A stretch of DNA of 64,000 nucleotides from Nymphaea colorata (lineage: Eukaryota > Streptophyta > Magnoliopsida > Nymphaeales > Nymphaeaceae), in the NCBI RefSeq assembly GCF_008831285.2, contig NC_045138.2, positions 4,493,205-4,557,204 of the forward strand, written 5' to 3'. The position numbers were made by a program, and so were the translations under genes. The notes beneath the pieces are model-generated. The model saw only the letters and a program-made list of their open reading frames with translations, was not told the origin of the DNA and made no database searches. This document shows positions 3,279 to 63,075 of the stretch, one piece after another (the stretch's first letter is position 1; every line of letters starts with the position of its first letter).

Positions 3279-3490
3279 GAGATGTCAATGGATTGAATTT
3301 GAATCAGATATCTAACCAAATTACTTTCGATATAAAAAAAAAAAGAAAAAAAAACTTATATTTGATTAAGAACTCATATAAACTTCCGATTTTAGAAAAC
3401 GACACCTCCTGGATTTGGTTTCTGTTCTAAATAATATTCTTATCCTGATTTGAATTTTGATTTAGTTTAAAATAGACATTGTGTATACAA
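3279..3490 (+). mobile_element. TA-flanked GGATGTCAA element, truncated copy
   Basis: Begins TA|GAGATGTCAATGG and continues with the GAATTTGAATCAGATATCTAA-type interior shared by the full copies at 43850-44256 and 61977-62413. The right terminus is not seen here. Similar Gly-Asp-coding-like CGGAT/TTCAGATT words resume at about 3826-3945, so the copy may have been split by the element at 3531-3806. Confidence 0.55.
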
Positions 3491-16240: not shown

Positions 16241-16490
16241 TTTAAATGATTTCACTTAAATGGTTTTACTTTTAAAAAGAAAAATGTTAAAAAACTGTTA
16301 TTATAAATTTATATGGAATCGGCAGAATCTACTGATTCTGGCGACATCCAGATAGATTTCAAAGCCTTGTATTAGCTCCTGGGCTATCTAGTTTCTTGAT
16401 ATTGGAAAGCATCTGGCAAATACATTTGTAATCAAAATCAATTTCAGTGTTTCCATTGTTCAAAAATGGATCAAAGATCTCTCAGAATTA

Positions 16491-16910
16491 GGTGTAAATA
16501 TATCTGGGTTGGATCTGATATCCAGCCCAATCATTCCAAAAAGATCGGACATAGGAAAAAGTTCAATGTCCAACTAATGAATCGGATCGGATTCAGCATT
16601 AATAAATAACATCGATTGGATTCAGAGATACAAATATCCGATCAAATTTTGGATCAGATTTAGTTTAAAATAAATATCTTAGATCCAATGCCATATGTTT
16701 TGAAAATTGGCCAGATTTGGTTCAAAATTCGGACTCAGATTCAGATGTAAGTGTAAAAATCAAATTCAGATTGGATTCAGATTGTGAGATGGGATTTCAG
16801 ATTTGGATATAACTTTTCTTCATTCATATTTAAATCTGAATATATAAATATCCGAAAAAATGCATATGGTTAAGTGCATATCCAATTCAGATCTGATCCA
16901 TTGACATCCT
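16491..16910 (-). mobile_element. TA-flanked GGATGTCAA element
   Basis: Bounded by TA dinucleotides at 16489-16490 and 16911-16912. The right end is TTGACATCCT, the complement of the AGGATGTCAA terminus of other copies, so this copy is in reverse orientation. The left terminus (GGTGTAAATATATC) has diverged. The interior has the family-typical repeated GGATTCAGATT and ATTCGGACTCAGATTC words and no open frame. Confidence 0.75.
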
Positions 16911-16912
16911 TA

Positions 16913-19036
16913 CTAGAATAGTTGATTGTCAAATGAATCAATAGTTACTCGCAAAACCAGTCTCATTTTGCATGAATTTGTTGGAGAAGCTTCCGTCTTT
17001 ACCTTTGGTATGGACATGTTAGGAATCAGATTAGGATTCTGATAGAGAGTAGCAATCATCATTCAGATAGAGAGTAGCAATCATCGCGACTTATTGATTA
17101 GACATTCTCCAAATGAGTCAAATTCAGTAATTCATTACGAAATTCAAAACCATAATTGAACTTTTACATGTCAATAGATGTTGTCTGACAAAATTAGATA
17201 TATATTAATTCAATTCAACAAGAAATCTGTTCTGAAATCAGTGTCGATTACTAGGCAACTTGAATGTGTTGCTGAATTCAACCGATCAAGTCCAGATTCG
17301 AAACAGATAACAACGGATTTGATTAAAATTGATTTTGACTACCAAGTAGACATGAATTTGTTGCCAACTTAAACCGATCAAATCATGCTTCGAATCAGAT
17401 GTCATATAATATCTGAACGTTGGTATCCTTTCCTCAGGTGCAAACACTCCTGTCCTTGGCCTACCATTTTGCCGTCATCCCATCTGCCAATTCTCAATTT
17501 CTGCCTCGTAACATCTTTTGGGGATTAATGACATGTTAAAGCAACACCATAATCATCTCCCACATTTCCATTGTGGATCTCAACTTTTCTGTTTTTTATG
17601 TTTTTCTAACTTTTTAATTAGTCATTTTGATATACTGATTCAAAAGCTAGAGAGTCCTAGACTGCGTTATCCGATTCTGTTTTTCTTCCTTTTTTCTTAT
17701 TTACTTCCTAACTGAAGTTAACACCAATGACAAGAAAAAATTCACAAGTTTGATTCTACACAGGGTTACCCACAAGCCAGATACAACCTATCACATAAAC
17801 TTGCCCCAGGGAACTTACAAAACGATATCAACACACGTTCAACAATTTGAAAATTTACCGAAATCAGTTAACTTGTTAAAACATGTCCCGGATGAGACAA
17901 TTTTCATATTCCGCTTTGCTCTTACAGCATGTAGACAATGATTTATGGAGCAAACTAAATTTTAATATGAACAAAAACCAAGATCTTTACAAAGTGGTCC
18001 ATTGCAAAGACAAGGATCAGATTAAGCAGTAAGCCCCTCCAAATATGTCTTCCTGGAATGTTAACATCCCATACGAGCAGACCTCCACATATTAGTGGAA
18101 AGAACCTGCTCACAATCTCGGATCCACATCCCAGGCTAAAGCCCATCCACATACAAAAATCTGCAAGGACATGATATTCATTCTAAAAAGAAAAAATAGA
18201 TGATAACTAAGCTTCTTCTTTTTACAATAATTTGGCTGCTTGCGTGTATCATGTATCATTTACATAAAAGGAAACAAGAAAATGACAGAAACCCCTATAG
18301 ACAGGAGTAACAGCCTGCAAAATTTCAACTGGTGTCGGCTTCTCAAAAGGAGCATCTACTCTAGGCATAAGGTGGATTGAAGCCATACTGACGATTATGA
18401 TTGGACAATATCACCCTCCTTGCCACAGCACATACCTGTGTGAGCAACAAAGATCACATAGAATCAGACAGAGTACCAACCTCTTTCATGGTTATCAACC
18501 TGAAAGGGCATAGCATGTACCATGAATCGATACATAGAATATGCATAACAAACTATTGTTATCTGGCTAGTGCCACAGATATGATGGAATCTTTAAAATT
18601 GTGCACTTCAACTACAATGTCTGTGTGAACTAACGTTAAGATTTTCTGGAATACACTACGTGAGAGATACCACCTAGATCTTGGTCCTTAGGACATGGTT
18701 TCTGCCATGATGAACTGTATTTACTAGGTATAATCAGGTCACAAATTGTTTATATGAAAACGCCAACGTATTGAAGCACTGATAGTAGAAATTAGAAAGA
18801 TGAACATGTTCATTTTTTTTATTAACCTACAACTTTCCAGCAAGAAAGAACCATATCATGTGAAATGAACAGTACCAATTGTGAGGAACATGGGAGCATC
18901 TTAAGCAACAATCACCAAGATTCATGAGAAAGCTAGAACCTTGCCACTCAAGTTGTACCAATAGCGATCATCTAGACAGAGTCTTCTAGATTCTTGAAGA
19001 CTGATGTCATACTAGCTGCACTCAATTTACATGAAG
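16913..19036. other. Spacer and possible 3' region of the RING-CH gene
   Basis: No coding exon recognised. A short tandem repeat of the word GATAGAGAGTAGCAATCATC lies at 17040-17085. The part nearest 19036 would hold the 3' untranslated region of the minus-strand RING-CH gene, but its end could not be placed. Short minus-strand frames near 17955-18152 have no recognisable domain. Confidence 0.4.
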
Positions 19037-28939: not shown

Positions 28940-29113
28940 TATTGTTTTGTTAGTTTTTTATTTATTTTATTTTTCCTATTTTTTAAGATTTTTTTAATTT
29001 TTTTTAAAAATTTACTGTATTTTTCCCCTTTCTTTCCCATTTTTTTCAAGCTCGCTGTATTATACCGAGAAAAACCTCGCCGTTGAAACTCCAAAACGTT
29101 ATTTGTGACTATG
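28940..29113 (+). repeat. AT-rich repeat family, partial copy
   Basis: A T-rich tract followed by GAGAAAAACCTCGCCGTTGA and AACGTTATTTGTGACTATG. The same right end is found in the copy at 35838-36242 with few differences. No coding potential. Confidence 0.6.
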
Positions 29114-30814
29114 TTTTGAACATAGTTTAAGATTGCATTCTCAAGAAAAAAATTATCAATCATGTTTAATATTTACAGTAGGCCTTAGAAGGCTAAGTCT
29201 ATAGATTAAATGGATTTAATGTGGGCCCTATTTCAATGCTGTTATTTATTATCAGTGATCTAGTTAGCCTTGACAAGAGATACAAATTTTAGATCCTTAA
29301 CATATATACTTTGGCTATGAATATGAATGTAGATTAGCTGGAGGTTATCCGTTACAAGCATGCTAATCTGTGATACTATGTACAGAATACGTCCTACCAT
29401 TCAGCAATCCACAAACACCGTACTGATACTCATTTACATTTTATTGCAGTTGACAGTATTATGCAGCAATCAAAGATCAGTACACTTGTATCTAGACTTT
29501 TACAACATTCAAGGAGGAGCCCGTTAAATTCAAATTGTTTTGGTGAATGCCTCTGGCCTTTCACAGATTTTTTTAGTATGAAATGTTAGCGCTTCATGAT
29601 GCAGATGTTGTATTTTATTTTCCTTTTTGTTTTCATTTTGTTGCAAGGATATATATGTACCTACAGTAAAGTGTGAGGTTTTTTTGGAATGAGATGGTAG
29701 AGCAACCAGCGTCTGCACCTGTGTGGGTGTTCCAGCATGCACATGTTTGTTTGTTAGGGCCAATTGACAAGGTAAATGTAGCTGAAGCCAGAAAATGCAT
29801 TATTTAGGAAATGTAAATGTATGTACATGGTTCAATGAATTGATACTGAAGTTGGTCTGGGAAAAAAGCTCAATAGAACCAAAAGTGTCTTGTTTATGGA
29901 ATTCTCATGAACGAGCCCGAACTCCAGGTTCATATAGGCAAAAAAGAAGCCAGTCTATTTCCTAAAGATTTGTTCCCAAGGTGTCCTTTTTTGAGATGGG
30001 CAACGTGTTCACACACACAAGCAGACATATAATTTAACAATAGATGCACACCCACACATGTCATATCAAATAATGAAAACATGAAACTGCAAAATATTTT
30101 TTTAACTATGTGTATTAATCAGAAGTAAAATAAAGACAAAGAATCCTTGTTCATGCCTGGCTCATCTACATATAAAAATGAGCCCAGCATTCGCTGCAAG
30201 CAGTTTTATACAAACATGAACACACTGTTGAGGAACTGAACTGGCCTAATTATTAGCTGCTTGGTTAATTTTTTACCCCAGCTAAGTACTTGATGTGCTA
30301 CATAGTACATGTTATATAGTAATTAGTAGGAGTGGTAACACTGTACAAAATGAAGGCATAATTTTGTCAGGTATCTCGAACTCAGCCCAAATTGCTGGGT
30401 AGATGCATATAAGTGCCTTCCTCACCATATCTGATATATTGCCTGAATTGGTGTTGATGCCCCTTCTTCTTTTCTTATTGTTGGTATTTCTTGATAGTTA
30501 GTTGAAACTTCTCCATCTTGGTGGAGTAAGAGGTCCTTTAAGCCACAGTGTTGGTTTCTAGTTCTGGTTCATCAGTGTGATTGCTTTTGTTTACTCGTTC
30601 ACTGTGGATCTGTAATTTTTGTCCAGTCTTCAATCATGTTTGCTCAGGCATACGTATTAATGGAGTGCATCTGGTGAGCATGAATCATGTTTTTGTGAAA
30701 ATTTCAAGTATGAACTGACAATTCTGTTGCAGTTTCATTTTTACCCTTAAAAAATGTGGATGTATCTGTAGTTTAAGAAGTTATGCAGACTAATACATAT
30801 GATGGAATCGTAGC

Positions 30815-31235: not shown

Positions 31236-31989
31236 CTATGATTGGAATATCGGATTTTTGCTACTCATGTAGGTCTCTCTCTTTCTCTCTTTTTATGCTT
31301 CTTCTTTCATGACACTAAAGAAGCTGATGTTATGGCTCTCTCTGAAATGGTAATAAGTGATTGCTTAACTGTTTTTTTTTTTTTTTTTTCTTTTTTTGGA
31401 GTCTTGCTTTGGGAGAGCAATTTTCACTATTATATGCATGCCTGTTATGCATATACACCTTTGAAAATCGGTAGTTTTGCTCTTTTCTGGAAGGACCAGC
31501 TGCTCCTCTGGTGCAACTTTTAAGTTTTAAAGTTTTGGATGGTTAGTTAAACTTTTGTGGTTGCACATTACGGGAGAACTATCCAAATCCTTTCTGCCAT
31601 TGTTTTTATCTTGATTTTAGTTTTGAAATCAGAAAACTGATCTCAAAAGTCAGATATTGATTGATAATCTTAAATCCCAGTTCAACGCATTGTACAGAAA
31701 AAAATCCATATCCTCGTGTCATTATCTTGTGATCTTGTATGTTAGTTTTCATTGTAACTAATGTCAGTGTTTTCCAAAATACGACATTATAGACAGGAAA
31801 AATAAGAAAAGCAAAAAGTGAAAAATTGTCAAGAAAAAATAATGTATTGTTGCGGGTTTATTTAAAAATACTATTTTTTAATATAATCTATTTTTTTTTT
31901 GTTTTTTCCAACATTTTTTGCCAATTGTTCAGGTTTTTTATCAAATTTTTTTGTTAAGAAAATTAGTAGAAACTAGAAACCACTGGCAC

Positions 31990-32390
31990 AAATATCGCAA
32001 GATTTTCAGAAATCTCATAATATTTATGATTAAAACAAATAAAATGGTAAAATCTTGTGAGTTTCTGAAACTCTTGCTAAAATGAAAATCTCACTTTTTT
32101 TTCCTGAGATTTTAATATTTTTTATTTTTTAAGATTTTTAAAATTTTTTAAAAATTGTCAAGGCTTTCCCGAGATTTTCTTGAGATGAACTTGGCCGAAA
32201 ATACCCATGAAAAACCTATTTCCCCAAGAATGATATTTGTGACAACGGTAGGAACTAATAAGTTCATAACTTCATATATATATATATATATGAATTCTGA
32301 AAATTTTCTTGAGAAAAACCTTTCCAATGAGTACCTGAGGAAAGCCTCACTGATGAAAATTAGAGAACGATATCTGTGACAATGTTAGTT
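31990..32390 (+). repeat. AT-rich repeat family, copy with duplicated right end
   Basis: Begins ATATCGCAAGATTTTCAGAA, reaches a family-like right end GATATTTGTGACAACGG at about 32232-32248, and carries a second, related right end GAGAACGATATCTGTGACAATG at about 32362-32384 after a short TA repeat. The two ends suggest a nested or internally duplicated copy. Confidence 0.45.
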
Positions 32391-32825
32391 TTGGAAATGT
32401 ATATCTTGTTTTAAAACTTGAATATTGATTTTAGATGGCTATCTCGATCCACAGAAATCCATATTGAGGCCTCAGGCTATCTATTAGTGCTTGTATCATC
32501 GTGGTCTCCTAGTCCGCATTACTGCATCTTCAGAGTTCACCTCCTAGCGAACTAGGGAACACCCTTGGATGCACAGAACTTTAGTCTTCAAATGTTCATT
32601 GTTCCCAATTCCACAAAGCATTTTATCTTTTTTATTTTCTTTTTTCAAAAGAATGGGATGAAGGGACAATTGTGTGTGAATGTGCAAGAGGGGAGGCCTC
32701 AGTGGGAGTTTTACAGTTAGGTTTAACAGTTTTAGAAAGTGATTAAAATCAATCATGAACTGCTAGCCACTGATACTCCTTTGGCTTTATGTTATACAAT
32801 CTGGCCCTATTTGCTATCTTTGCAG

Positions 32826-35044
32826 GAGAGATTGTACTGCAGTCCTTTGTTGGGTGCCTCTTGAGAAAAGTTATCCTTTAACTTACAGGCATGGGTTTGC
32901 TATAGGTCTGCAAAGAGGACCACAACTATGTTACTCTACCATCTCATATGGGGAGTTTGAGGAGGCCCACACTGATCTGCCGAATGACGAGGAGCTGATT
33001 CCTAACAAAAGAGAGATCCAACCACAAGGAGTGGACCCAAAAAAGGGTTGGAATTTCAGAGGCGTACACCGGGTATTTCTCTGTTTTCGTTTTAAGCTTG
33101 GGAAGTGACTATGGAACTAAAAAATTTATTATTACTTAATAAATCATATACATGAGGAACTAACTCAGGCATATTTCCTCTAGGCAATTATTTGTGGTAG
33201 ACTTGGACAAGCTCCGGTTCAGAAAATCCTCAGGAATGGCCGGACTGTAACCATTTTCACAGTGGGAACAGGAGGCATGTTTGACCAAAGAACTATCTGG
33301 TCAGAGAACATGCCAAGACCAGTTCAGTGGCACAGGATTGTTGTACATAATGAAGCGCTTGGTGCATATGCTGTTCAAAAACTTATGAAAGAGTATGTAT
33401 GTTTAATCTCTTCATTCATTTTGGTTTCAACTTTTTACAGTTTTTCTTTCTCGAACAATTTTTTCAGTCCATGCCACCTTAGTACCTACTAGTGCAGCTC
33501 TGCAGTTAATATACTAAATTGGTTTTGTATAGTTCTAACTGTGTCCTTTCCTTCTTCTCTTGTTTCAATACTTAGCTCACCAGTTTATGTTGAAGGGGAC
33601 ATTGAGACAAGAGTCTATAATGACAGCATCAATGGGCTGGTGAAAAATGTCCCTGAGATATGCATCCGGCGTGATGGTACGAACTTGTAAATTTGTAATA
33701 TTTTGCTTTGCATGTGCCTTAAACATAAGCACCCACTGGTTTTCATAAATATTTGATGATATTTGATCTGATTTCCTCATTGAGCAATTTGAGGAAAATA
33801 TACAAGGATTAGTGGAGATCCATCGGAAGCATTAATAGGTCATATCCCTTTCTATGCTACTCCAGAACAATCTCTACTAAATTGCGGTTAATGTTGTGTT
33901 AAGTTTCTTTATTATTCTGGGTTCTTCTCATTTATGAGATTTGAGAAAACAAACTTTTCCCCTACATGTTTTTAAGATATGGTTGTAAAATTTGGGTTTT
34001 CTAATGTTCTAAAAAAAACTTGAATACTACTCACCTTGTTGTCTCCCATTATTGCACTAGGCCTCTTTTCCGGTATAATCCTAGCTGGGAACCAATTGCA
34101 AATATGCTAGCTGGCTAGTGTGCTGATCACATTTCTGATCAGCACATGGATGCAATCAAATGCCTGAAAAACCTTAGAGTTAAGCATTCATTTCTGGACT
34201 TGAAAGTCCGATAAAATATAATGCAGGTTTAGCAAAAGTAGGGTAATTCCATTGTTTTCTAGTGAACCCAATCTGGTGACTGCATTTGCAATTGGGCATG
34301 GTTCATTTGCTAGAGATTTGATACTTGAGTAACTATTGTAAGTCAGCCTAAATTGGCTGATTTGAATCAAATTGGTGGGATGCTCCTCCCATTATCAGCT
34401 GACACAGGGGTGCCACGTGTAATACACAATTCACTTTAAAATTATTTTTTAAATATTTGAAACTTTTCCCAAGTTTTTTGCATAATTGTTTTTTTCAATT
34501 TATTAATTATTATTATTATTATTATCATTATATATTTAATTTATTTTATAAAAGTAAATATAATAATAACTTTTTGCTGTTTCATATCCTTCATTTGTAT
34601 CATGATTCATGGATAGTTCTTGTGCAGAATTTGAAACACTTGAAAAATCTTCCATGTTCTGTAATAAATAAACGAAGAACTGTTCCTGTTGACATAGTTC
34701 TCTCTCTCTTTTTCTCTCTCTTGTTATATATATATATATATATATAGATATTCTAGTGGGTGGACATGCAGCTTCAGGTAGTATTGAACATACATAAATA
34801 CATATATACAATGTACATGCACATGAATATGCTATATAGTCAAAAGCGTTAAACAATTTCTTAGTGCTAAACCTTGCCTAGGGCCTAGCCAAGGCTAGGC
34901 TGCTCCAGGCAATCCACAGAAAAAGTACAAAAAGTAAATAAGCAAAAAGAAAGTTCATAATTAAATATTAAATAATTTACAAGCATTGTGGCACACATAC
35001 AAAACACAAATTGATTCAGCAAATCCAAGAAATGATGATTAAAC

Positions 35045-35091
<47 letters not shown>

Positions 35092-37355
35092 TTCGAACTT
35101 TACCAAAGAAAAATGCATATTACATAATTGAAAACTCCATAACATGCACTTATGACACCAGAACAAAATTGAAGACATATAGGTGTTAACAACACTAAGA
35201 CAATAACTGATTATGTGAATTAACACCAACAACTATATTGAGCACACAAATTTTGACTAGCTAGAAATAACCACAACTGACTAATATTAGCAAATAGCTA
35301 ACGTGCCTGGTTTACCAGCATCTACACAAAAAATGCAACGTTAAAACAAAAACCAATTAAGAATACTAGATTAAGAAAAATAGAGCCATAACAAAAGGAA
35401 AAGTTGGGGGGGGGGGTGTGAAAGAAGAAACGAGTTAAAAAGGAACAGAAAAATCAGAGAGGAAGGTGGCAGGAGAAAAATCAAGAGAAATGAAAACAAA
35501 GAGAAGGCATTGGCAACCCTTTTTTTTTGTTGTCTTAATTGAAAAAAGCCTTTGATACATGGAAGCCTATGTGTGACCATGCCTAGGAACATTCCGTAAG
35601 GACCTAGATTCCCTAGTTGTTTTGGCCACCTATAACCGCTATGCCGAAGCTGCCAAGGTATACTAGATAGCATAGAGATCTCAAGCGTAAGCCAAATGAG
35701 ATTGTGGTTGCATAGTGAATATATATGTTGCTTGCGAATAAATTGATAAACCTATGTCACATGGGTGCAGGTGTCAGTGTGAGTGTGGGTTGTGGCAAAT
35801 TTCAGAAAAACATGGGTGCAGGTAAGATGAGGGTGTGCAGATATCACGATATTTTCAAAAATATTGTGATATTAACGCCAAAAATAAGAAAAACGAAAAA
35901 AAGGGAAAAAGTCATGATATTTTGAAAAAATTGAGAAAAAATATGTATCACGTTATTATCGTGATTTTTTCATTTCTCTATTTTTTAGCATTGACATTAT
36001 CATAGATTCAAATATAAACTTAAACTAACTTATTTTCTTCATTTTTATTGTCATTAGAACATTCCTTTTATCACTGTTATATAGTTTTATTTATATTTTC
36101 CTATTAGTTTCTCATTTATTTCATTTATACCCAATTTTTTTTCCGAGTTTTTTCCCAAGATTTTCTCAAAAAATGCAACTTTGTTGTTAAATCCAAGAAA
36201 AATCTCGCCGATAAAAACCCGAGAACGTTATTTGTGACAATGGGGTGTGTGTGTGTGTGGGTGTGTGTGTGTGTGTATATATATACAAAGTCACATCCTA
36301 GATTCCAAAATCTGTAGCCTTTTATTTTTTCCATGTAATATACATTCTCACACACACACACACACCCCATTGTCACAAATAACGTTCTCGGGTTTTTATC
36401 GGCGAGATTTTTCTTGGATTTAACAGCAAAGTTGCATTTTTTGAGAAAATCTTGGGAAAAAACTCGGAAAAAAAATTGGGTATAAATGAAATAAATGAGA
36501 AACTAATAGGAAAATATAAATAAAACTATATAACAGTGATAAAGGGAATGTTCTAATGACAATAAAAATGAAGAAAATAAGTTAGTTTAGCTGTTAAATC
36601 CAAGAAAAATCTCGCCGATAAAAACCCGAGAACGTTATTTGTGACAATGGGGGGTGTGTGTGTGTATATATATATACAAAGTCACATCCTAGATTCCAAA
36701 ATCTGTAGCCTTTTATTTTTTCCATGTAATATACATTCTCTGGAGTCTGATTTCAGATTTTACAATCTTACTCACAACATAAGTAGGCATTAAACAAGTA
36801 GTTGTTGTATAAATAATTAAATATATGGTATATATTACATATAACATATATAAGACTGGTTTACAAAACTGGTAATACATGTATATAACTTATATAAGCT
36901 TCGTTTTTCCTAGGGAAGGTTTAAAAAAATGCCTAATCAGTTGGTAGTTGCTATTTCAGTCTCCACTGGCTTCAATGTCTATGGCTTATAATGGGACAGG
37001 TTTAGGATGATTTTTTGTGCTGGTCAAATCATGCTGTATGGACTGTGGAATTGGATCCATTGATGTAACAATGCTGGTCAATGAATTGATTTTTCCTCTT
37101 CTTGCAAGGTCCATAGGTTTCAGAAAATCTATTTATTGTTACAAACTTACAATCAATCTCTTAAATTTAATTTTCCATCAAAACCTTAACAGGCAAGGTT
37201 CGCCTTATTAGGACATCTGAAGGCATCAGCAGTGCTTCACTTGATGACCTAAGTAAGATTCTTATTCCTTTAATTGTTGTCATGCTTTTAGCCGCTTTGC
37301 AGTTGTAACTATAATATCATAATGATTATTGCTCCCAGGAGAAGGCTTATTTTAG
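32826..37355 (+). CDS. mtSSB: Mitochondrial-type single-stranded DNA-binding protein (first exon not found)
   Basis: Predicted OB-fold protein that coats single-stranded organellar DNA during replication, repair and recombination. Five coding exons: 32826-33072, 33184-33392, 33576-33676, 37193-37252 and 37339-37355 (ends REGLF then TAG). They join in consistent phase to about 210 residues; the start codon must lie upstream. The OB fold is seen as AIICGRLGQAPVQKILRNGR, TVTIFTVGTGGMFDQ, PVQWHRIVVHNEALG, PVYVEGDIETRVYND and GKVRLIRTSEG. The preceding region (LQRGPQLCYST) is basic and hydroxylated, like the end of a mitochondrial presequence. The sequence around GVHR to GRLGQAP is the plant organellar SSB pattern rather than the bacterial one. 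Intron 4 is 3.5 kb and contains recent repeat insertions. Identity is confident; mitochondrial targeting is inferred. Confidence 0.85.
33677..35837. other. Long intron of the SSB gene, left part
   Basis: Non-coding. It contains a (TA)n tract at 34725-34746 and an (AT)n tract at 35049-35088. A run of about nine G residues lies near 35406-35415. Short frames here show no recognisable domains. Confidence 0.5.
35838..36242 (+). repeat. AT-rich repeat family, reference copy
   Basis: Starts near CAGATATCACGATATTTTC, an internally palindromic end, and finishes at GAGAACGTTATTTGTGACAATG. The interior is A/T-rich with TTTCCTATTAGTTTCTCATTT and CAAGAAAAATCTCGCCGAT words. Related copies are at 28940, 30815, 31990 and 44610. 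Length is about 400 bp, with no open frame. The superfamily is unknown; neither terminal inverted repeats nor target duplications were established. Confidence 0.6.
36021..36740. repeat. Near-perfect inverted duplication plus direct duplication in SSB intron 4
   Basis: The left arm, 36021-36276, is repeated in inverted orientation at 36350-36589 with only about two substitutions over roughly 225 aligned bases. The intervening segment 36277-36349, which holds ACAAAGTCACATCCTAG, is repeated in direct orientation at 36667-36740, joined to a copy of the inner left arm at 36590-36660. The order is therefore arm A-B, spacer S, inverted B-A, then B, S again. The near identity means the event is very recent. 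Transcribed, the arms could pair into a hairpin of over 200 bp. Confidence 0.9.
36242..36290. repeat. (GT)n microsatellite
   Basis: GT repeats interrupted by GGG, followed by TATATATATA. A matching (CA)n tract at 36350-36364 is its inverted copy, and a shorter GT tract at 36651-36664 is the direct copy. Confidence 0.85.
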
Positions 37356-43251: not shown

Positions 43252-43849
43252 AGTATTGCAATTCTTAGCTTGCTTAACCTTCCCGTTGTGCGCACTTCTA
43301 AATTCTTTCATAATGTTCATGTCCTTCCAGCCATTGTGATTCAAGTGGCAGGTATGCGGATAATAATCTGAAATCAACCCAATTTTTGTAACGTTTGCAT
43401 CAATTACCCAATAGCAGATTGTGGTTGGGGTCAGACTTGGATTTGACAGATCAAATTTGATTCACACTTGGGTTGGTTCACATCAAGATTTAAGATCACG
43501 TTCAGCTAAAATCCAAATTAAGATTTTATCTTCGTGTTTACATCTAAAAGCAGGTGCCTTGAACACCTTTTATGGGATTCAATTATATGCTTTTCTGTAC
43601 ATTTTTTTTTTCTTAAGATGCAGCAATATTGCAATGATTTATTTGTATTAAGTTTCAACGGCAACTGATAGATGTGTTTGGATCTGAATTTGTATTCATA
43701 TGTACATAGCCGTTTTAGCTTACGACCTACTAGAATGCTGACTGAACTCAAGGGATTTGCACTACGGCGTGCTTGAAAATGACTTGTTGGTCTCCTCACT
43801 CTTCTCCTTATCCAGAGGGAGAGAGAAAACACTAAACTTTGTCTGGTTA

Positions 43850-44256
43850 GGATGTCAACGGATCGAATTCAAATCAGATATACCCTTAATCATATGTACT
43901 TTTTAGGATATTCACATGTTCGGATTCAAATTTGGATTCAGATACGAATAAAGAAAACTCATATCCGAATCCGAATGAGAAATCCAATTTTACAATTTGA
44001 TCTGAATTTTGAACCGGATTTTGCCAATTTTTAAAATGCAATAGAATTAGATACAATACATTTGTCTAAAAACGAATCCGATTTCAATCTGATCAGATAT
44101 TTATGTATATCTGAATCTGAATTTGATCGGATGTTATTTATTAAATCCGAATCCGATCCAATTTCTTATTCGGATATTAAAGTTTTTTTTATAGTTGATT
44201 TAATTGGATCGATTTAGTTGAATATCTGATTTAAATCGAATATATATTGACATCTC
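43850..44256 (+). mobile_element. TA-flanked GGATGTCAA element, reference copy
   Basis: Bounded by TA at 43848-43849 and 44257-44258. The left end is GGATGTCAACGG and the right end TTGACATCTC, giving a terminal inverted repeat of about 10 bp. Sub-terminal blocks (ATTCAAATCAGATAT at left, ATCTGATTTAAATCGAATAT at right) are also mutually inverted. The interior repeats ATCCGAATCCGAT-like words. No open reading frame; non-autonomous. A TA target duplication is the mark of Tc1/mariner-type transposition. Confidence 0.8.
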
Positions 44257-45319
44257 TAAATTCAATGGTGTAAAATGAAAACTCAAGATGCTTTGATCTT
44301 TTATCTTTCATCAAACATGGTCATATCTGTCAATACACGTTTGCTAATCTATAAATGAATTATAGTTATATATAATAAAAAAATAAAACGTATAAAATGC
44401 CAGGCTGCCTGCTGAATGAAGTGGCAGATTCAGCGTTCAACGTGAGTCAGTTACTATGAATTGACAAAAAGTGTTTTATGTCTTAAAAAAAGTATATGAC
44501 ACGTGACACCTTTGTATCAGCTGTTTAAATTTGTAGCGATAGCATTTTGCGATAATAAATTAGCTGTTTAAGACTTAAAAAAACTCCTTTAAAAAAACGT
44601 TAAATTGCTAAAACACAAAAAAACACGTTTTTTTTTTCATTTAATTCATTTTTTCACTCTTTTTAATGCCAAATTATTTTTTTTCATTTTATAATTGTTG
44701 CAAATCTACTTTTTTGGTGATGTTTATGTTATTAGTTTCTCACTTATTTTATTCTCTTTATTTTTAGTTTTTTTTAATTTTTAAAAATTTATGGTATTTT
44801 TTTATTTTTTATTTTTTTTTCTTTAAAGCCGCACAAAAACCTTGCCTTTTAAAACTCAAAAAAGTTTGTTGTGACTATGTTTCAAATTATAAGAGCTTCC
44901 AGACTTTTGGTGCACAGAAGAATGAGATCTCAAGCTTGATAATTGGTGCTCTTTGTGAAAAAAGAAAAAGCTTTTTGAACAAATATTTCTCCTTTTCTCT
45001 TGCGAAGTTGAAGGCGTCTTTGTGAAACATTTCATGCACATAATTGTCAGCTCATCACTCAAAGTCAAGGTTGTTTGACTAAAAGAAATTGAGCATTTCA
45101 GTACTTCTCGATCAGCAAGATGGTTAAAACCTGATCGGAAATGTTTGATAAATCTAAAATAACATAAAACAATTCATTTTAAATTGTCATCACATTCAAT
45201 TCACGATTTTTTTTGTCTCATAAGATCTGAGATCATAATTCAAATCAAATTTGAAGAAAACCAGCTAAAAGAAAGACCTTGAACCACACGACGTGTTATA
45301 AAATTGGAGAGTCCCCATC
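44257..45319. other. Spacer downstream of the NLR gene
   Basis: No coding exon seen. About 44610-44882 ends AACTCAAAAAAGTTTGTTGTGACTATG after CCGCACAAAAACCTTGCC, which resembles the right end of the AT-rich repeat family found around the SSB gene. The part next to 45319 would contain the NLR 3' untranslated region. Confidence 0.4.
44610..44882 (+). repeat. AT-rich repeat family, diverged copy
   Basis: Long T-rich tract with TTATTAGTTTCTCACTTATTT, then a right end AGTTTGTTGTGACTATG matching the GTTATTTGTGACAATG end of the reference copy at 35838-36242. The left boundary is unclear. Confidence 0.45.
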
Positions 45320-48300
45320 TTATTTGTAGCTAATACGGACGCCTGGCAAGTAGTCTCTAGGCAATAAAAGCAAGGGGCAGTTGTAACAATCCAAATCTTC
45401 AAGCCTTGAGAGCGACGCGATCTGTTCTTGTTCTGGCACCAATCCTGCACTACCATGCTCCCCCTCTTCTTCTTCCTCTGCTGCATTTGCAGGTCGGGGA
45501 AGCATGTCCACAAGATACCTCAGTTTGGGGAACTTTCTTATATAGAGCCCTTTAAGCTGTTTGAAGTTTTGCCAGTGGCCTCCTCCCAAACTTGTCTGCT
45601 CTGGGAAATCATACAGCCATATCTCTTCCACTTGGGTGAGACCCCACACCCAATCTGGCACCTTTCCCCAATTGGCATTGGGTTCCCCTCCCCACAAATG
45701 TAGAATCCTGAGGGAGGGTAGAAACGAGGATACCTGTGATGGCAATGGCGGTTCATCACCATCTCCACATTGCAACAACTCGTTGCTTGTCCTGAGCTCC
45801 GTGAGTTTGGGCAGACGAGTGAAGGCGTCCAACTTGAGTCTCGCACATGGGCTCACCAGTACAGTCAATTGTTGAAGCTCGATCTCATGACCCTTTGATA
45901 AAGCAGGGAGGAGCCCTTCCATCTGCATATTTGGGCACATCACCAATTGCGCATTTTTTAGGCATGGCAGTGCTGCAGCTTCCCCTGTTCCCCCTTCAAA
46001 TCCCTCCCATTTGGGTAAACCAAACATTGTCATTTCTTCAAGCGATTCTAGACATGGAGGCAAGGCCTTGAGCTCTGCGCAACCTGACACTTCCAGTGTT
46101 CTGAGGTGTGGCATGGCAGTGGTCCCTTCTTGCCCTTTCTCCATCGGCCATCCTCTGAAAATGTTCAAGTACTGCAGCTTGAGTTCCTCAAGTGAAGGAA
46201 AGCATGGGAGATCGTTTAGCACCTGACAGGACGACAACTTCAACTTCCTTAAGACGGGCATGTTTGCAACTGAATTCAATTTATTGCATTCCTTCACTTC
46301 AAGCTTCACAAGGGCGGGCATGCTAGTTAGCAGCATAAGGTCGTCACATTTTTCCAATGTCAATGACTTGAGCGCAGGCACGACGGGCATCGTCCCCAAG
46401 TGAGAGCAACAGGACAACCTCAATGTCTGCAGATTGGCATAGTTGGACTCCAGATACCAAGTGCTTGGCAGCGCGCCTCCTTTGTAGCAGGATAGCTCCA
46501 AGTTCTCGAGGCCATGTGGAGGCTGTAAAGCCTCTAGTATACCACCCTGTCTCTTTGATTCATTCTGTAATTCCCCTGTATCATCATCAGCAGTTCTGCT
46601 GGTTGCGCCATTGGGCATCGAGAAATCCAAACGCAGGGCGGTTATGCTCTTCTTTTTGTTGAGTTGTGCTTCACCTGCGTCTGTCATGGTAGTGATACTC
46701 CCCAACCCCATTATATTCAAACTTCCCTTCAGTTTGTTCAACTCTTTCAACTCCCTAATACTGCACCCATTTTCACACGCAAGGAACTTGCATAGGGTCC
46801 TTAAATGCGTAAGCTTACCAAGTCCTTCAGCCACAAATGTTAATTTGTCTGTCTTTTCCAATCCAAGATACCTCAAGTTGCAAAGTTCCCCTATTTCCTT
46901 GGGCAACTCCTCTATATGGCTGCCATCTAAATTCAGTGTCTGCAAGTTGTAGAGTCTACCTATTGAACTAGGCAAACTCTTCACCCAAGTGCCACTTAGA
47001 CCAAGATATTTCAAAAGCGCAAGGTCTCCAATGCAATCTGGCAACTCTTTTATATCAGCACCTATCAATGACAACACTCTCAAGCTCCTGACCTTGCCTA
47101 GGCTATTAATTCCACAGCTGCAGCTACTCAGCAATGTATGCAGCTTACTTGTTTGCAATTCACTTTGAGCAATAAAAGAGCCGCCCGTAAGAGACAAGTG
47201 GCGGGTGTGCTCAGTTGCAGAATTATGACTGTATTCTTTTCCACCAATGTACAGGGCAAGATCATGTAGAATATCATGCAGTTTGACACCCTTTTTTGTT
47301 TCTTCTATCAAGCATCGGTCTATCAAATCATTAAGATAATCGTTTGCTCTCGCTTCCATGTCAACCCCGTTAGCTTCTTCAACTAATCCATGGGCTATCC
47401 ATTGCATGATCAACTCATTCTTTTGTATTTCATAATCCTTTGGGTACACACTGCAATAGACAAAGCAGTTCTTCAAACAAGGTGACAAGTCATCGTAGCT
47501 TAGCACCAGTCCAGGAAGAATGTCACCATATGGAGAAGAAGATGAGGGCATTTTCCATTCCCAGATCCCGCTCTTCTCCGCAACTGTCCATTCATGCCTC
47601 CCTATCTTCTTTGAACGCAACAAACGCCCGACTGTTTGGATCACAAGCGGCAAGCCGCCACATTTTTGTACTATTCTTTCCCCGATATCTTTCACATTTT
47701 CCCTTACCAAGTCGTATTCACTCTTGTCTTCTTTCAGTGCATTTATCACAAACAAGTGCCAGCTTTCTTCTTGAGATAATCGCTCCAGTTTATGCATGTA
47801 TATTGAGTTAACATCACCAGAGACTTGTTTCTTCCTAGTGGTTATCAGAACTGCACTACCCACTGCACCCTCTACCAACAGGGTCTTTATTTGTTCCCAC
47901 CACTCTAAATCCCATACATCATCTAGAACCAACAAAAATCTTTTGTCTGATAACTCTTTCTTTAGGCACTTGCATAGCAGCTCCAATTGGGTATAGTCAG
48001 GGGACTTTTCGGTAACTGACTCTAGTATCTTTCTCACCAATTCCTTGAGGTCTGGTTTCTCTGAGACACATACCCACCATCTGTTTTTCCCAAACTCTTC
48101 TTCAACTTCATTAAATACCATTTTAGCAAGAGTTGTTTTGCCAATTCCCCCCTGCCCTGTGATCGAGATGACAGAGACATTACATTTTGTACCATGGGTA
48201 AAGCTTCTAAGTTGGAGACTTTCTAATATCCTTTTCTTATCGACCTCCCTGCCCACTGTACCCTGCCAACTTATAAGGGAGGTGGTTTCTCTGTAATGTT

Positions 48301-48838
48301 TAGTACTCGTGGGATTCTGACCAGTACCACTGCTTTGTGTAGCTTCAAAGAGTTTATATAAACCCAATGTCTCCCTCTCTCTGTGTATTTCTTCGAGCCT
48401 TTCATTTATGCTCTTCATATTATTTCCAAGTTGGTAACGATTAAAGCTCTTGCTAGCAGACATGATGGCCTTTCTTTTCTTTCCCGAAGAGGTGCTCGTT
48501 CTGTATTCGTCGATGGTGTCCTCGGCATCATAGAGAACATCCTTTAGCTTCCACACCCAGTCTCTGACGCGCTCGTTGTTGAAAAAAGGCATGCGGTTTG
48601 CAGTTTGAATGGCTGCTCGAATATCCTCGAGCTTGCTCTCGAGTTTCTTGAGCTCCCCTTCTGCATTCTTGAAGGCATTAAACTTTGCTTTGATCAAATC
48701 CACAGAACTCAACAGCGAGGAAATGGCAGCCTTTGCGAGCTCTTCTGCCATGTCTGTTTGCTTGAGAATACAGCTGATGGCAGAGCCAAACTGAGAGAAA
48801 TCTTTCCACCTTAGAAACAAAGAAGCAGGCATGGACAA
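45320..48838 (-). CDS. CC-NB-ARC-LRR immune receptor (CNL), single exon
   Basis: Intracellular receptor of the plant NLR family, which detects pathogen effectors and triggers defence. The open frame is 1172 codons; the likely start is the ATG at 48751 (MAEELAKAA), giving 1143 residues, because CNLs typically open this way and the 29 upstream residues are unlike the family. In that numbering: coiled coil about 1-130 with the EDVID-equivalent DAEDTIDE near 75-82; P-loop GQGGIGKTT at 199-207; RNBS-A WVCVSE; kinase 2 FLLVLDDVW at 272-280; RNBS-B GSAVLITTR; GLPL CGGLPL at 364-369; RNBS-D CFVYCSVYPKDYE; and LHD (490-492) where MHD is usual. About 20 LRRs fill from roughly 540 to the C-terminus, some irregular. 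The frame is intact with no stop. Ligand unknown. An LRR relic at 61300-61700 is a likely relative. Confidence 0.96.
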   Translation of the reverse strand: MSMPASLFLRWKDFSQFGSAISCILKQTDMAEELAKAAISSLLSSVDLIKAKFNAFKNAEGELKKLESKLEDIRAAIQTANRMPFFNNERVRDWVWKLKDVLYDAEDTIDEYRTSTSSGKKRKAIMSASKSFNRYQLGNNMKSINERLEEIHRERETLGLYKLFEATQSSGTGQNPTSTKHYRETTSLISWQGTVGREVDKKRILESLQLRSFTHGTKCNVSVISITGQGGIGKTTLAKMVFNEVEEEFGKNRWWVCVSEKPDLKELVRKILESVTEKSPDYTQLELLCKCLKKELSDKRFLLVLDDVWDLEWWEQIKTLLVEGAVGSAVLITTRKKQVSGDVNSIYMHKLERLSQEESWHLFVINALKEDKSEYDLVRENVKDIGERIVQKCGGLPLVIQTVGRLLRSKKIGRHEWTVAEKSGIWEWKMPSSSSPYGDILPGLVLSYDDLSPCLKNCFVYCSVYPKDYEIQKNELIMQWIAHGLVEEANGVDMEARANDYLNDLIDRCLIEETKKGVKLHDILHDLALYIGGKEYSHNSATEHTRHLSLTGGSFIAQSELQTSKLHTLLSSCSCGINSLGKVRSLRVLSLIGADIKELPDCIGDLALLKYLGLSGTWVKSLPSSIGRLYNLQTLNLDGSHIEELPKEIGELCNLRYLGLEKTDKLTFVAEGLGKLTHLRTLCKFLACENGCSIRELKELNKLKGSLNIMGLGSITTMTDAGEAQLNKKKSITALRLDFSMPNGATSRTADDDTGELQNESKRQGGILEALQPPHGLENLELSCYKGGALPSTWYLESNYANLQTLRLSCCSHLGTMPVVPALKSLTLEKCDDLMLLTSMPALVKLEVKECNKLNSVANMPVLRKLKLSSCQVLNDLPCFPSLEELKLQYLNIFRGWPMEKGQEGTTAMPHLRTLEVSGCAELKALPPCLESLEEMTMFGLPKWEGFEGGTGEAAALPCLKNAQLVMCPNMQMEGLLPALSKGHEIELQQLTVLVSPCARLKLDAFTRLPKLTELRTSNELLQCGDGDEPPLPSQVSSFLPSLRILHLWGGEPNANWGKVPDWVWGLTQVEEIWLYDFPEQTSLGGGHWQNFKQLKGLYIRKFPKLRYLVDMLPRPANAAEEEEEGEHGSAGLVPEQEQIASLSRLEDLDCYNCPLLLLPRDYLPGVRISYK

Positions 48839-51800
48839 ACTATGAGATGCTCACTCTTAGCAACTGCGGACAGAAAGTGGAAGCTTAAACAGGTACACGG
48901 ACTATGTCTCAACTGTACTTATTTGCATTAATGTTTTAAACCTTGCTTCTTGCTTTAATATGTTTCAAATTTCACTTCGTTTTTCATCCTTTCTTATGCT
49001 TGGGGTCACTGAACATGACAATTGCTCATAATCGTATGTAACAAAAGCTAAAACAGCTTCATGGCAACAGCGAAGCATACGGAAACTTAAATAAAACCAG
49101 ATTATTGGGCTGGTTATTAATAAAGCACATTATCCAATACAGCGTATAAAAAAGCAAAAACATTATATAAAAAATAGATATGTATATTAAAACAGTGTAT
49201 ACAAAATTAAATTATAAGGATCGGCTCCTCGGCGAACAAACTAAAGCTGAAAAAACCTAAAATAAAGCAAACTTAAACTGGTTATATTGTAAATTTAGAA
49301 CATCTTGCACGCAACACATGTACAACAAGGAAAAAGAGAGGGGGGATAGGAGATTTTAAAAGTCTTTTGTAAATAAATGTATATTTGTACTTTTAACTTT
49401 TTTTCATAACCTTTTTTTGTTCTTCTAAAAATCTATTTTTAAAACATTTTCTAGAATATTTAAGTATTACACACCTCTGTTGTGCTTAACTTTTTTTGTA
49501 CAAAGGTCTACACGTAACCTGTTGTCCGAACGGATTATATAGAGCACATTGCAAAACGCAACTTTCCCTTGTCCAACAAAAACATGCTGATTTTTGGATG
49601 TTTTATTGAGCTGCCCAAGTTGTTTATAAAGGCCACTCCTTTCTAAGTAACTAAAACCATAATTTTTTTTTGTGTTTTTTTATTGGTGAAAACTTTTTTC
49701 GGATTTATTAAGAACAAGTTTACTCCTTAATCTCTCCCCAATAATGTGATCATCCAAATTCAGTTTTTTCTCTTCTATATTACTGAAAATCCTTAAATAT
49801 CACCCATCATCAAGATAATCTATCCTCTGCATAAAACTAATGAGGCAAGCTGGTATTACAGATCTCTAGATTGGACTTTTTTTTTGTTTCCGACAAATCA
49901 CGATTTAGCCGTTTAGGTCGACAGTGTATAGGATGTTGAGAATCAATGAAAATAGTTTTGTTGAAAAATTGGTGCACAATTTCCTTTTTGGCAATAATTG
50001 GAGATGGAACAATACTTGCTTAACTCATTTATGTTAAACATGTATCGTTTCTTTTAACTCATTTAGTTGGTGCTCGCTTAACTATTATCTTCTTGTAAAT
50101 CAACATTCATTATGTAGTCGAGCCCAGTCGAGTTCTTACAACTCGAACTGTAGTCGTTTAACATTTCAAGCTCGCTTGTAAACGAATCGAACTTGAGTCG
50201 AGTTTTGGCAAGTAAGTTTGAGTCGAACTCGAGCTGGCTTGATTGATTGTGCAGCCATACCAACTACCCTGCTAAAAACTAGTCAGTTTGGATCTATAAT
50301 GACTAAAATGCTTTTGATTAAAGTAAAAAATGGAGTTTCTTACGAAAATAAAAATTTGATTATGAAAAAGTTAAGAACTAAAAAACTAACACCTTTTTAT
50401 AAAAATTTCTAAAATGCCCTAAACCCTCAATTTTTTATACGGTATAGATTTATTGTGTGAACACAACTTGATCTCTTAAAAACCCTCTAACCTATTGTTA
50501 TGCTCCTCCCAAATCCGCCACCAACAATATATCAGGTTGGGGATGTAGCGGGATAAGGAGGGCCGAGGGTGGCAGAGGAGCTAACAGAACAATGAGCAAG
50601 AGGTAAAAAGGTTGAAAAGATTCTTTTGTAGAACGACAAAGGATACACCAACTAGCCAAGTGGAAACCAAATGTAGCCAGCAAGTAGGCAAGGGGTATAC
50701 CAACTAGTCAGATTGAAACCAAGATGCTGCAGATGGTCAATAGTGTCAATATGCGAAACTGGTCGCCTTTATGCACACATAGAAGTGTGTAATGCCTAAA
50801 ATACCCTTGATAAAGTGAAAAAAAAGATATGCAAAAGTCTAACAAGTACACTTTATTATAAAACAATACTTAAACCTTTCCCCTTTTTATTTGTTGTGTG
50901 CACAATACAATTCCATCTTGTTAATATGAATATGACCAACAAGTAGGAGTCATGCAAAAACCATGGCACCAAGTGTGTGGTTAGCTATCGACCATACTTT
51001 TGGCAGATGAAGGAGAAGAACATGTGGTCAGAGGTGGCAAGCCACCACCACTAGGAGCATAGCCAGGCAATGGTCATGCGTCCGGATCCCTCCATCCCTA
51101 GGAGATGAGTGAACCTGGTTAATATGTGTTTTTTCATGCACCAGTATGATTAATGACTAAAATGCCCTTAGTTCACATTGGATTTTTTTTTTTTGTAAAC
51201 ACAAAATTGAAAATCAACAAAAGTAAAAAAGACTTTGGATGGCATTTTTTTTAATAAATTTTCAAAATGTCCTTCATTGCCTTACTGCACATCGTGGTGC
51301 GCCTGTTGCATATAACTTTCTCTCGAATATGAGGGCACACAACAACATCCCACTGTGCCAGAGAAGCATGCAGTTTATCTGCTGTCTCTAAAGAAAAGGC
51401 GAAGGGCTCTGTCAAACTGATGGAAGATGAAGGCAAGAGAGAGAGAGAGGGAGGGAGAGAGAGATTGATGGAAAGAAGGGCAAAAGTGTCCTTTTTTGCA
51501 TTAAACCATAGTTGTCTAACCTTGTTCAATAAGCTGGATCGCCTGTTGATATAAACCTGCAAAAGAGAGGCTGTAAAGTCGAAACCTTTAAAATCACAGG
51601 ATCCTGTTTGCCATTTGTCTAAAATTGAGACGTTTTTTTGCAATTTTTTCATATAAAACAAGTTATATGACGGGCTATACTAATAAGTCATAGTAAACGC
51701 TGTCGTGAGTGCCACGAGAGTTGGGAGGAGGAGCTAGCAGTCAATCCTCGACCTGGCGGTCGCTGGTGGTTTGTATATAGTTGTAGCAAGTCATTGACTT

Positions 51801-52546: not shown

Positions 52547-52888
52547 CCTCCTTAAGTTCTTTTCCTTTTATGAATGGTGGGTCGTGTGTAGGGACGTATT
52601 AAGGTTGGACGCATCTGATTATGGACCTGACTTTGAATCCATTTAACCGTAGCTAGTAAAAAAGCATTGTGCCATTACTAATCAAATTCGTTTACTTTTC
52701 AGTTTTATGCTATATTCAGGCCCGAGTCCACTTTGTGTTACGGAGATCCAACAAAGATCCAACCCAATTATGTCTAGATTTCGGATCATAAGCTTCTCGG
52801 ATCCAAATTCAGTTTTGAAAAGTAGAGCCTACATTTGAATCCCAAGTCCTACCTGAATCCAAACCACTGACATCCATAGTTGCGGATA

Positions 52889-53333
52889 GGGATGCCAATA
52901 TATCTGATTTGCATCAGATTTCTAATTTATCTGTTTCGAAGAAATCAGATATGAAAAAAAATTTCATATCCCATTAAAAAGTTAGATTGAATTCAGCTTT
53001 AGTAATTGGCTTCCAATCAGATTTTTGGATATACATAAACATCTGATTCGATTTAGATACGGATTTGAATCAGATTTATTTTAAACAAATATCCTACATC
53101 AAATGCTCTTACATTTTGAAAACCGGTCAAATTCGGTACAAAATTCGTATTCAGATATGAATATAAAAATTAGATTCGGATCAGGTTCAATTTGTAAAAT
53201 TGGATTTCAGATTCAGATTTAGATATTTCTTTGTTCTTATTTGAATATGAATTTGAATCCAAATAAGTCAATATCTGAAAAAGTAGATACAGTTAAAAGT
53301 ATGTCTAATTTGAATACGATCCGTTGGCATCCC
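52889..53333 (-). mobile_element. TA-flanked element with perfect short terminal inverted repeats
   Basis: Bounded by TA at 52887-52888 and 53334-53335. Ends are GGGATGCCAA and its exact complement TTGGCATCCC. The interior is the reverse of the reference copy at 43850-44256 (runs of AGATTTGGAT, ATTCGGAT type). The GCC in place of GTC at both ends is a matched variant, as if both ends were co-selected or gene-converted. Confidence 0.8.
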
Positions 53334-53771
53334 TAATCGTGGTTGAAGGGGTAGCCTTGTCCTCCCTTTCTTTCTTTCTCCTTTGACAGCTTTTCATTTC
53401 TCCTTGGCGGCTTGTATGACAAGTAGTTAGGTGGGTGGCTTCTTTTTTGTGAAAGAGACCTGAAAGATAGTTGGGTCACTTGATGAGCACCAAAGTTAGA
53501 AAATTAGTACAGGCAGCCATAAGGTGGGGGCGGTAGGGGGTTAGCTGATGTAGAAGATAAGGTCTCCAGTATAGGCTTTGGAAAGAAAGGAATTGAAATG
53601 TGCATCGAAGAAGGTTGAATGATCCCATCATTTCCTAGATTTGAAGAATAGATCATCTGCCAATAACTGTGGCCACTTTGGTTAGAATCAAGTGGTAGTA
53701 TCACGCGCATATCATGGTGGGGTCTTTGACTCTCATTTTCAGCGGTGGAGTTAGAAATTTTTGGTTAAGTA
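53334..53771. other. Short spacer between two elements
   Basis: No gene visible. A minus-strand frame at 53504-53710 has no recognised domain. Confidence 0.4.
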
Positions 53772-54213
53772 GATGTCAGTATATTTGATTTGGATCAGAT
53801 ATCCAACCAAACCATTCTGAAAAACCAGTTATAGAAAAAATATAATGTCCTATTCAAAGATCAAATCGGGTTTGGATTAAAGAAATGACATTCAATTGCA
53901 TTCGGATTTAGATATATATAAATATTCGATCATATTCAAATTCAGATTGGATTTAGTTTTAAACAAATATCATACATCCAACACTCTTATATTTTGAAAG
54001 TATGCTAGCTTTGGTTCAAAATTCGGATTTGGAAGTGAATGCAAAATTGGATTAAGATCATAATCAGATTGTAAAATCGGATTTCAGATTCAGATATGAC
54101 TTCTCTTCGTTTATATTCAAATGAGAATTCAAATATGGACATGTGAATATCTGAAAAAGCAGCTATATGTGGTGAAGAGTATATTTTATTTGAATCCGAC
54201 CCAATGAGATCTC
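53772..54213 (-). mobile_element. TA-flanked GGATGTCAA element
   Basis: TA at 53770-53771 and 54214-54215. The left end is GATGTCAGTATATTTG; the right end (CCAATGAGATCTC) has lost part of the terminal repeat. The interior matches the 52889 copy in order and orientation. Confidence 0.7.
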
Positions 54214-54527: not shown

Positions 54528-54919
54528 AGGATGTCAATAGATCACCCACCTGCTTTTTAGGATATTTACATATTCAGATTCAAAAGACAAAAATTCATAT
54601 CCAAATCCAAATCCAAAATCTGATTTCACAATCCAAATCGGACTTTTACATTCATATATGAATCTAAGTCTAAGTTTGAAGCAAATTTAGCCAATTTTTC
54701 AAAATTTAAGAGCATTAAGTATAGGATATTTCTTTAAAAATAAATCCGATGAATCCGAATCCGATTGGATATTATTTGTATCTGAGTCCAATCAGATCTC
54801 ATTTCTTAAATCCAAATATGATTTCACTTATTAATCAAATATTATTATTTTTTTCATATCTGATTTTTTCGGAATAGTTTGGTCGGATATCTGATCCAAA
54901 TCAGATATACTGACATATC
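54528..54919 (+). mobile_element. TA-flanked GGATGTCAA element
   Basis: TA at 54526-54527 and 54920-54921. Left end AGGATGTCAATAG, right end CTGACATATC. The opposite orientation to its two left neighbours makes this a cluster of three copies within about 2 kb. Confidence 0.7.
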
Positions 54920-54921
54920 TA

Positions 54922-57395: not shown

Positions 57396-57530
57396 TTCAC
57401 CAAATCTACTTTCCTATCATCAGTGGGAGAGCTACGTTTGCCACACAATCCCACAAAATTTTCACCAAATCTACTTTCCTATCATCAGTGGCAGAGCCAC
57501 GTTTGCCACACAATCCCACAAAATTTACTT
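57396..57530. repeat. Tandem duplication, period 65
   Basis: Two units starting TTCACCAAATCTACTTTCC at 57396 and 57461 are nearly identical (GTGGGAGAGCTACG versus GTGGCAGAGCCACG). The GTGGCAGAGCCACG core resembles a terminus found in some dispersed plant elements. Young, local duplication. Confidence 0.85.
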
Positions 57531-61976: not shown

Positions 61977-62413
61977 GAGATATCAATGGATAAGAATCGA
62001 ATATGTCCTTAACCGTATCCATTTTTTCAAATATTCACATATTGACATTCAGATTCAGTTTCGAGTACAAATAAAGAAAAGTCATATCTGAATCTGAATT
62101 TGATCCAAAATCTGATTCCATGAGCTGAATTCGATTTTTGCATTCATATTCGAATCTAAATCCAATTATTGAACCGAATGTGACTGATTTTCAAAGTGTA
62201 AGAAGATAGCATATATGGTGTTTATTCAAAATTAAATCCGACCCAAATCTGAATCCGATCAAACATCTATTCGAATTCGAATCCTATGGGATGTCATTTT
62301 CTAAATCCGAATATGATCTGATTTATCATTCGGATATTTATTTTTTTCCATATTCAATTATTTCGGAACAAATCGATTGGATATCTGATTCAAATTGAAT
62401 ATATTGACGTTTC
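61977..62413 (+). mobile_element. TA-flanked GGATGTCAA element
   Basis: TA at 61975-61976 and 62414-62415. Left end GAGATATCAATGG, right end ATTGACGTTTC; sub-terminal ATCTGATTCAAATTGAATAT matches the reference copy. Both termini carry substitutions, so it is an older copy. Confidence 0.7.
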
Positions 62414-63075
62414 TAATTGCAATCTCCCCCTCCTAACCCTCAGAAAAATTTAATTTATGTATTGGATATGCTGCTTGGTCATGCCCTATGTTGAAATACA
62501 TTTAGATTCATGATATCCAAAACTTTTTTACACAATAAAATTAGACAAACAAGAGATTAACAAGAAATCAGGTCGCACCACTATTGATGGGAAAATTCAT
62601 GTGAATGACAGAAACATCTAGAATTGGAGAGGAAAAAGAAGCAGCAATAAGAATGTAGCTAATCTGGACAACAGAAATGGTGGTGTATGGAATGGTAGAA
62701 AGAGTGTGGAAGCCGAGGGCCGAGACCATTGAAGACTAACCAACCGAATTGATGGCTAAATTACTCTGCGGGACAAGGATGTGTGAAGATGGCTGGATGT
62801 CCTTTTCACATTAAAACTACTTTTTGTCCTGTTTTCTAAATTAAATGGAGACAGTTGTTGCATGCACTCTCTACCACTGGTAAGGCAATAATGTGGTGGT
62901 GGAGCTAATCAAATGGACTCACTCACTCGACTTGATTTTTATGAGGGGAGGGCCGAACTCTACAACTCAATTGTAATTGTCAGCATGCAGCCTGGTCTTT
63001 TTCTTTATTTGTTGCTTTGCTTTTCTTCCTCTATATCTGAAAATTGCTTCTCTTTCATTGGGGCCTGTTTCAATC
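62414..63075. other. Spacer before the reverse-transcriptase relic
   Basis: No gene recognised. Could include further retrotransposon sequence too decayed to identify. Confidence 0.35.

Follow-up and report, generated by a model that had tools for sequence, protein, structure and literature searches.

Rearrangements of the DUP-TRP/INV-DUP type, the closest described counterparts of the locus reported here, are usually far larger than it. At the human PLP1 and MECP2 loci they comprise segments in successive copy numbers of 1-2-3-2-1, with an inverted middle copy and two junctions (PMC4352052; PMC10766186). In the portions of these accounts drawn on here, most rows of Table 1 of one give a junction microhomology of 0-4 bp (PMC10766186) and 14 of the 16 Jct2 sequences of the other share 1-4 bp (PMC4352052), with exceptions such as one of 47 bp in an Alu (PMC4352052; PMC10766186). 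One junction of the PLP1 and MECP2 cases, as opposed to all DUP-TRP/INV-DUP, lies in large pre-existing inverted repeats, and a single PLP1 case is given with a triplication of ~254 bp (PMC4352052). At a shorter range, template-switch mutations have been treated under a four-point model, and the inverted copies of the gold-standard great-ape set are reported with a median of 12 and a maximum of 128 (PMC7954356). Inverted-repeat loci that make siRNAs are represented in Arabidopsis by PAI1-PAI4 and VIM4-VIM2, which involve whole genes and are described with small-RNA data (PMC13213937).

The block that we describe occupies positions 36021-36740 of the window, by which we mean the whole 64-kb stretch of Nymphaea colorata DNA that was analysed. 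It resembles the DUP-TRP/INV-DUP rearrangements in its 2-3-2 copy numbers, its inverted middle copy and its two junctions, here with 1 and 0 shared bases; it differs from the PLP1 and MECP2 cases in that only 391 bp have been added, in a plant intron, and that no pre-existing inverted repeat was seen by eye at the junctions. With the short-range template-switch mutations it shares a local inverted copy of the sort produced when synthesis switches away and then returns, a near-perfect hairpin and an insert copied from nearby (36351-36589 from 36021-36259). Unlike the great-ape set, its inverted copy is 239 bp long, above the maximum of 128 given there (PMC7954356), and unlike the usual short-range switch its return point lies upstream, so that a further stretch is also duplicated. 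Like PAI1-PAI4 and VIM4-VIM2, it has near-identical inverted copies with the potential for a long hairpin transcript; unlike them, its arms consist of old repeat sequence within an intron. Among the literature matches listed, judged by titles and abstract starts, no inverted triplication in a nuclear plant intron was evident, which we do not offer as a claim that none has been published; on the same basis no paper on de novo miRNA formation by template switching was found. The block is a known kind of mutation, tidy but ordinary, and by itself it alters no accepted view. If real and young, it would provide a clean, base-resolved and very small plant example of a pattern that the literature searched here describes mainly from human disease loci, and would show that one copying error can place a long hairpin in a transcript.

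The host intron and the dispersed repeat

The block lies in an intron of a plant mtSSB-like gene, much of it on an old dispersed repeat, the coordinates of which are those of nhmmer envelopes or match ends, with copies sought within the 64-kb window:

33677..37192, + strand: intron of the mtSSB-like gene containing the block, 3516 bp, with GT donor, AG acceptor and frame kept
35838..36242, + strand: old dispersed repeat of ~400 bp, holding A and most of B (segments defined below), from nhmmer matches in the window
31232-30805, - strand: dispersed-repeat copy (nhmmer E 1.8e-14)
31989-32399, + strand: dispersed-repeat copy (nhmmer E 1e-4)
29026-29121, + strand: dispersed-repeat fragment (nhmmer E 1e-4)

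The placement in an SSB intron, already proposed in the first-pass annotation, is borne out. A tblastn search with an mtSSB probe recovered + strand exons at 33187-33390 (E 1e-34), 33574-33678 (E 1.5e-14) and 37192-37266 (E 0.010); the splice context fits, with the exon ends read from the genomic sequence rather than from transcripts; and the joined exon peptide matches the Pfam SSB profile PF00436 (E 2e-18). As for the repeat, a local alignment to the copy at 31232-30805, with 285 of its 451 columns identical, extends across position 36021, the outer breakpoint of the block, which thus falls inside the repeat. Long alignments of the arm to the other repeat copies are 63-69% identical, rising to 82-86% over stretches of 36-50 bp. 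The copy at 31989-32399 is itself diverged, has the motif GAAYGATATYTGTGACAA twice and a 39-bp palindromic stretch at 32263-32301, and perhaps represents a nested or tandem copy.

Structure of the block

The region 36021-36740 is one sequence in three adjacent copies, in the order A-B-S-B'-A'-B-S, and resolves into the following parts:

36021..36182, + strand: segment A, left copy (outer left arm); inverted match 36428-36589, with one difference at 36066
36183..36259, + strand: segment B, left copy, closing with the first (TG)7 tract; inverted match 36351-36427, direct match from 36590
36260..36349, + strand: segment S, first copy, comprising GG, the second TG tract, the TA tract and unique sequence; loop of the hairpin; direct match in 36590-36740
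36349..36351, no strand: junction 1, S to B'; C shared (1 bp) at the edge of the CA tract, with an extra A (36350) or an extra CA unit
36351..36589, - strand: B'-A', the right arm, an inverted copy of 36021-36259, from repeat matches and best-fitting breakpoints
36589..36590, no strand: junction 2, A' to B; GTTTA/GCTGTT, 0 shared bases, no GT/CA repeat
36590..36740, + strand: B-S, second direct copy, running unbroken into the right flank (TGGAGTCTG...)

Segment A is thus present twice, B three times (once inverted) and S twice, and it is the middle extra copy that is inverted. The repeat search returned the inverted arms as 36021-36268 and 36342-36589 (248 nt, 98% complementary); once the tracts are read through, the copied interval is 36021-36259 with its inverted partner at 36351-36589. 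The inner ends given by the first-pass annotation, 36276 and 36350, are accordingly slightly off. Its count of about two differences in 225 bp holds outside the GT tract, where the exact register 36021-36245 against 36365-36589 has 2/225 mismatches, both T in one arm and C in the other (36066 and 36184). The third segment, 36590-36740, is likewise confirmed as a direct copy of 36183-36349, and with it the order of the segments; over the 63 positions of B it departs from the left copy once and matches the inverted copy throughout, and the S copies past the tract are identical (0/64 differ). The tracts themselves vary: that on the left reads G4(TG)7GG(TG)7(TA)5C, that of the right arm G4(TG)8 before its exit into S, and that of the third copy, which is shorter, G6(TG)5(TA)6C. 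The inverted self-match scores 797 bits, whereas none of 20 mononucleotide shuffles of the region exceeded 34.6 bits, which excludes a chance origin. When the window was compared with itself by BLAST, just two rows had at least 120 columns and at least 80% identity, and both come from this block.

Only two new junctions occur, 36349/36350 and 36589/36590, with 1 and 0 shared bases. Inspected by eye for pre-existing inverted repeats of the kind involved in origin-dependent inverted-repeat amplification, the junction sequences have these 1 bp and 0 bp in common. It had been proposed that both switch points adjoin GT/CA repeats; this is true of 36349/36350 and does not apply to 36589/36590. Both S copies stop at the same base (36349 and 36740), and only the second runs on into the flank.

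Origin of the block

The arrangement is best explained by two template switches, which would make the block a miniature DUP-TRP/INV-DUP; they are the simplest origin of the order A-B-S-B'-A'-B-S, which the first-pass annotation had already traced to two replication template switches. Under this reading, a strand copied from left to right through A-B-S would have halted at the end of S (36349), resumed on the opposite strand by priming at the CA tract with which B closes, and run back through B'-A'; a second switch to B (at 36183) would then have led it across S and on into the right flank as it originally stood. The net result would be a 391-bp insertion with copy numbers A2-B3-S2, that is, duplication, inverted triplication and duplication. 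The direction of copying is presumed, and a mirror path fits equally. The switches may have taken place at a stalled fork or in the repair of a break, and we take MMBIR/FoSTeS-like or polymerase-theta-like synthesis to be the candidate routes; a literature search for filler DNA with polymerase theta in Arabidopsis found no paper.

We compared simple histories by the edit distance that each leaves from an assumed unduplicated allele in which 36349 is joined to 36741. The double switch leaves 21, mostly in the GT tract, as against 154 for an inverted copy alone, 230 for a tandem B-S copy alone and 391 for no event (406 if the B-S of the third copy is taken as the single copy); these figures rank the models and are no test statistic, since the double-switch breakpoints were optimised on a small grid (12 x 12 x 7 positions, then 14 outer) and those of the alternatives were fixed. 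Five equally good solutions were found, in which the first stretch ends at 36348-36350, the inverted one runs from 36259-36261 to 36021 and the last begins at 36183. The 1 and 0 bp shared at the junctions also favour the double switch, since they fall within the 0-4 bp of most DUP-TRP/INV-DUP rows cited above. Two details count against the simplest form of this model: compared with the first left tract, junction 1 carries an additional CA unit (or a single additional A), and the (TG)7 of the left copy is missing from the third. So does the lack, by eye, at both junctions of the inverted repeats that mediate one junction at PLP1 and MECP2. These tract mismatches mean that repeat slippage must be added to the double switch.

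We consider it probable that both switches took place in one event of replication or repair. The coincident ends of the two S copies, with the flank following only the second, come free with one event, whereas a history in two steps needs a coincidence. Such a history, in which inverted B'-A' was inserted after S and direct B-S added later behind A', would draw some support from the published account of palindromic junctions as lacking stability and readily rearranging a second time, at least in the part of that study drawn on here (PMC10766186), and the sequence by itself gives no timing of the junctions. It would, however, require at least one further junction along with the exact agreement of the S ends at 36349 and 36740, and it sits poorly with the near-zero divergence in every pair of copies (2/225, 1/63, 0/63 and 0/64), for which reasons we consider two separate events improbable. 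The arms do lie within a dispersed repeat of which the window has three or more further old copies or fragments, as might befit a transposable element with long terminal inverted repeats (a foldback element or MITE) inserted in the intron. Yet inverted ends that coincide with the element ends, the mark of such elements, are lacking here: the repeat spans ~35838-36242 and the arm 36021-36259, the outer arm end lying inside the repeat and the inner end beyond it. Nor is there, by eye, a target-site duplication in the 12-bp flanks, and long inverted arms are absent from the remaining copies in the window, for which only the palindromic stretch of the copy at 31989 was listed. Such an insertion would also fail to account for the third B-S copy. 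The mismatch between arm ends and repeat ends, together with the missing target-site duplication, leads us to set aside a transposon origin as highly unlikely. The arms were instead copied from each other rather than inserted separately, given 223/225 identity between them against 63-69% to the other copies of the repeat.

Two further explanations bear on whether the block is real and whether it is as young as it looks. Foldback chimeras yield inverted copies, so that a foldback or chimeric molecule, or else mis-joined haplotypes, could in principle have produced the arms as an assembly or library artefact. This is unlikely in view of the two substitutions and the differing tract lengths that distinguish the three copies; moreover, a simple foldback would presumably give no third direct copy running into the flank. 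Sequence exchange is also possible between close inverted arms, and an older inverted duplication held identical by conversion between its copies would only appear to be young. This proposal concerns the age of the block and is compatible with the double switch. The S segments lie outside the arms and are nonetheless identical at 64/64 positions between the direct copies, as youth predicts, although exchange between the direct copies could have had the same effect; on balance we give conversion an outside chance.

The GCTGTT variant and the age of the block

At 36184 the left copy has T where the inverted and third copies have C, so that the third segment shares GCTGTT with the inverted arm, from which it had been suggested that it was copied from that arm. 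This does not follow, as a single later C-to-T change confined to the left arm is sufficient, and templating of the third copy on the inverted arm would be an addition that is not needed. The old paralogues give a weak indication at best of the polarity of this mutation, the fragment at 29065-29113 having C, the copy at 31232-30805 C or T depending on the alignment, and that at 31989-32399 A.

With two substitutions in 641 copy-bases, the divergence is 0.0031 per base per lineage (95% Poisson interval 0.0004 to 0.0113). If the yearly rate is taken as 1.5e-9, 7e-9 or 1.3e-8, values that we assume, the point estimates of age would be 2.1, 0.45 and 0.24 million years respectively, with intervals that extend over all of these rates from 0.03 to 7.5 million years. 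The block is probably young, with the proviso that conversion could have lowered its apparent age. The earlier description of the duplication as very recent is compatible with the two changes observed; its age in years hangs on the assumed rate and could have been reset by conversion.

The predicted hairpin

The + strand folds at -432.3 kcal/mol, compared with -136.7 on average (sd 6.1) for 20 shuffled versions, into a long near-perfect predicted hairpin. This low energy is a consequence of the inverted copy itself and is silent on processing, such as the small-RNA production suggested in the first-pass annotation. The block is most likely without function, inert intron DNA, as the intron would be spliced out and the hairpin lost with it. 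A more elaborate scenario, in which the double switch has only just made the mtSSB-intron hairpin, which would already be processed to siRNAs while the unduplicated allele still segregates, so that a small-RNA locus would be seen at its birth, appears improbable to us. In a search for small-RNA targets, words of 36021-36349 made up of three or more letters had no exact match of at least 17 nt in 1-35837 or 36741-64000; the longest exact match there is 16 nt, in the GT/TA tract, and otherwise 15 nt. The window had no Rfam match at the gathering score. Viral and prokaryotic contig collections had no match to exact patterns of 24 and 26 bases taken from the core of the arm, to which we attach little weight.

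Other features of the window

By its gene content the window resembles nuclear DNA of a plant. Pfam profiles matched five of the six proteins scanned from it (SSB; Rx_N, NB-ARC and LRR; DnaJ C-terminal; RING-variant; aldehyde dehydrogenase), the sixth having no match. An unbroken frame of 1176 codons at 45320-48850 on the - strand combines Rx_N, NB-ARC, winged-helix and LRR domains and constitutes a CC-type plant NLR gene. A second family of old dispersed repeats is found at 43829-44258, 52887-53332, 53771-54211, 54554-54921, 16490-16929, 62023-62423 and 3269-3404, its longest matches covering ~440-460 columns; the comparison covered inverted pairs, which are 66-73% alike. On the - strand at 62970-63368 there is a fragment whose match to the RVT_2 reverse transcriptase profile, at 24.1 bits, falls short of the 31.6-bit cut-off, presumably a Copia remnant. 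Finally, 57396-57526 consists of two tandem copies of 65 bp with 96% matches.
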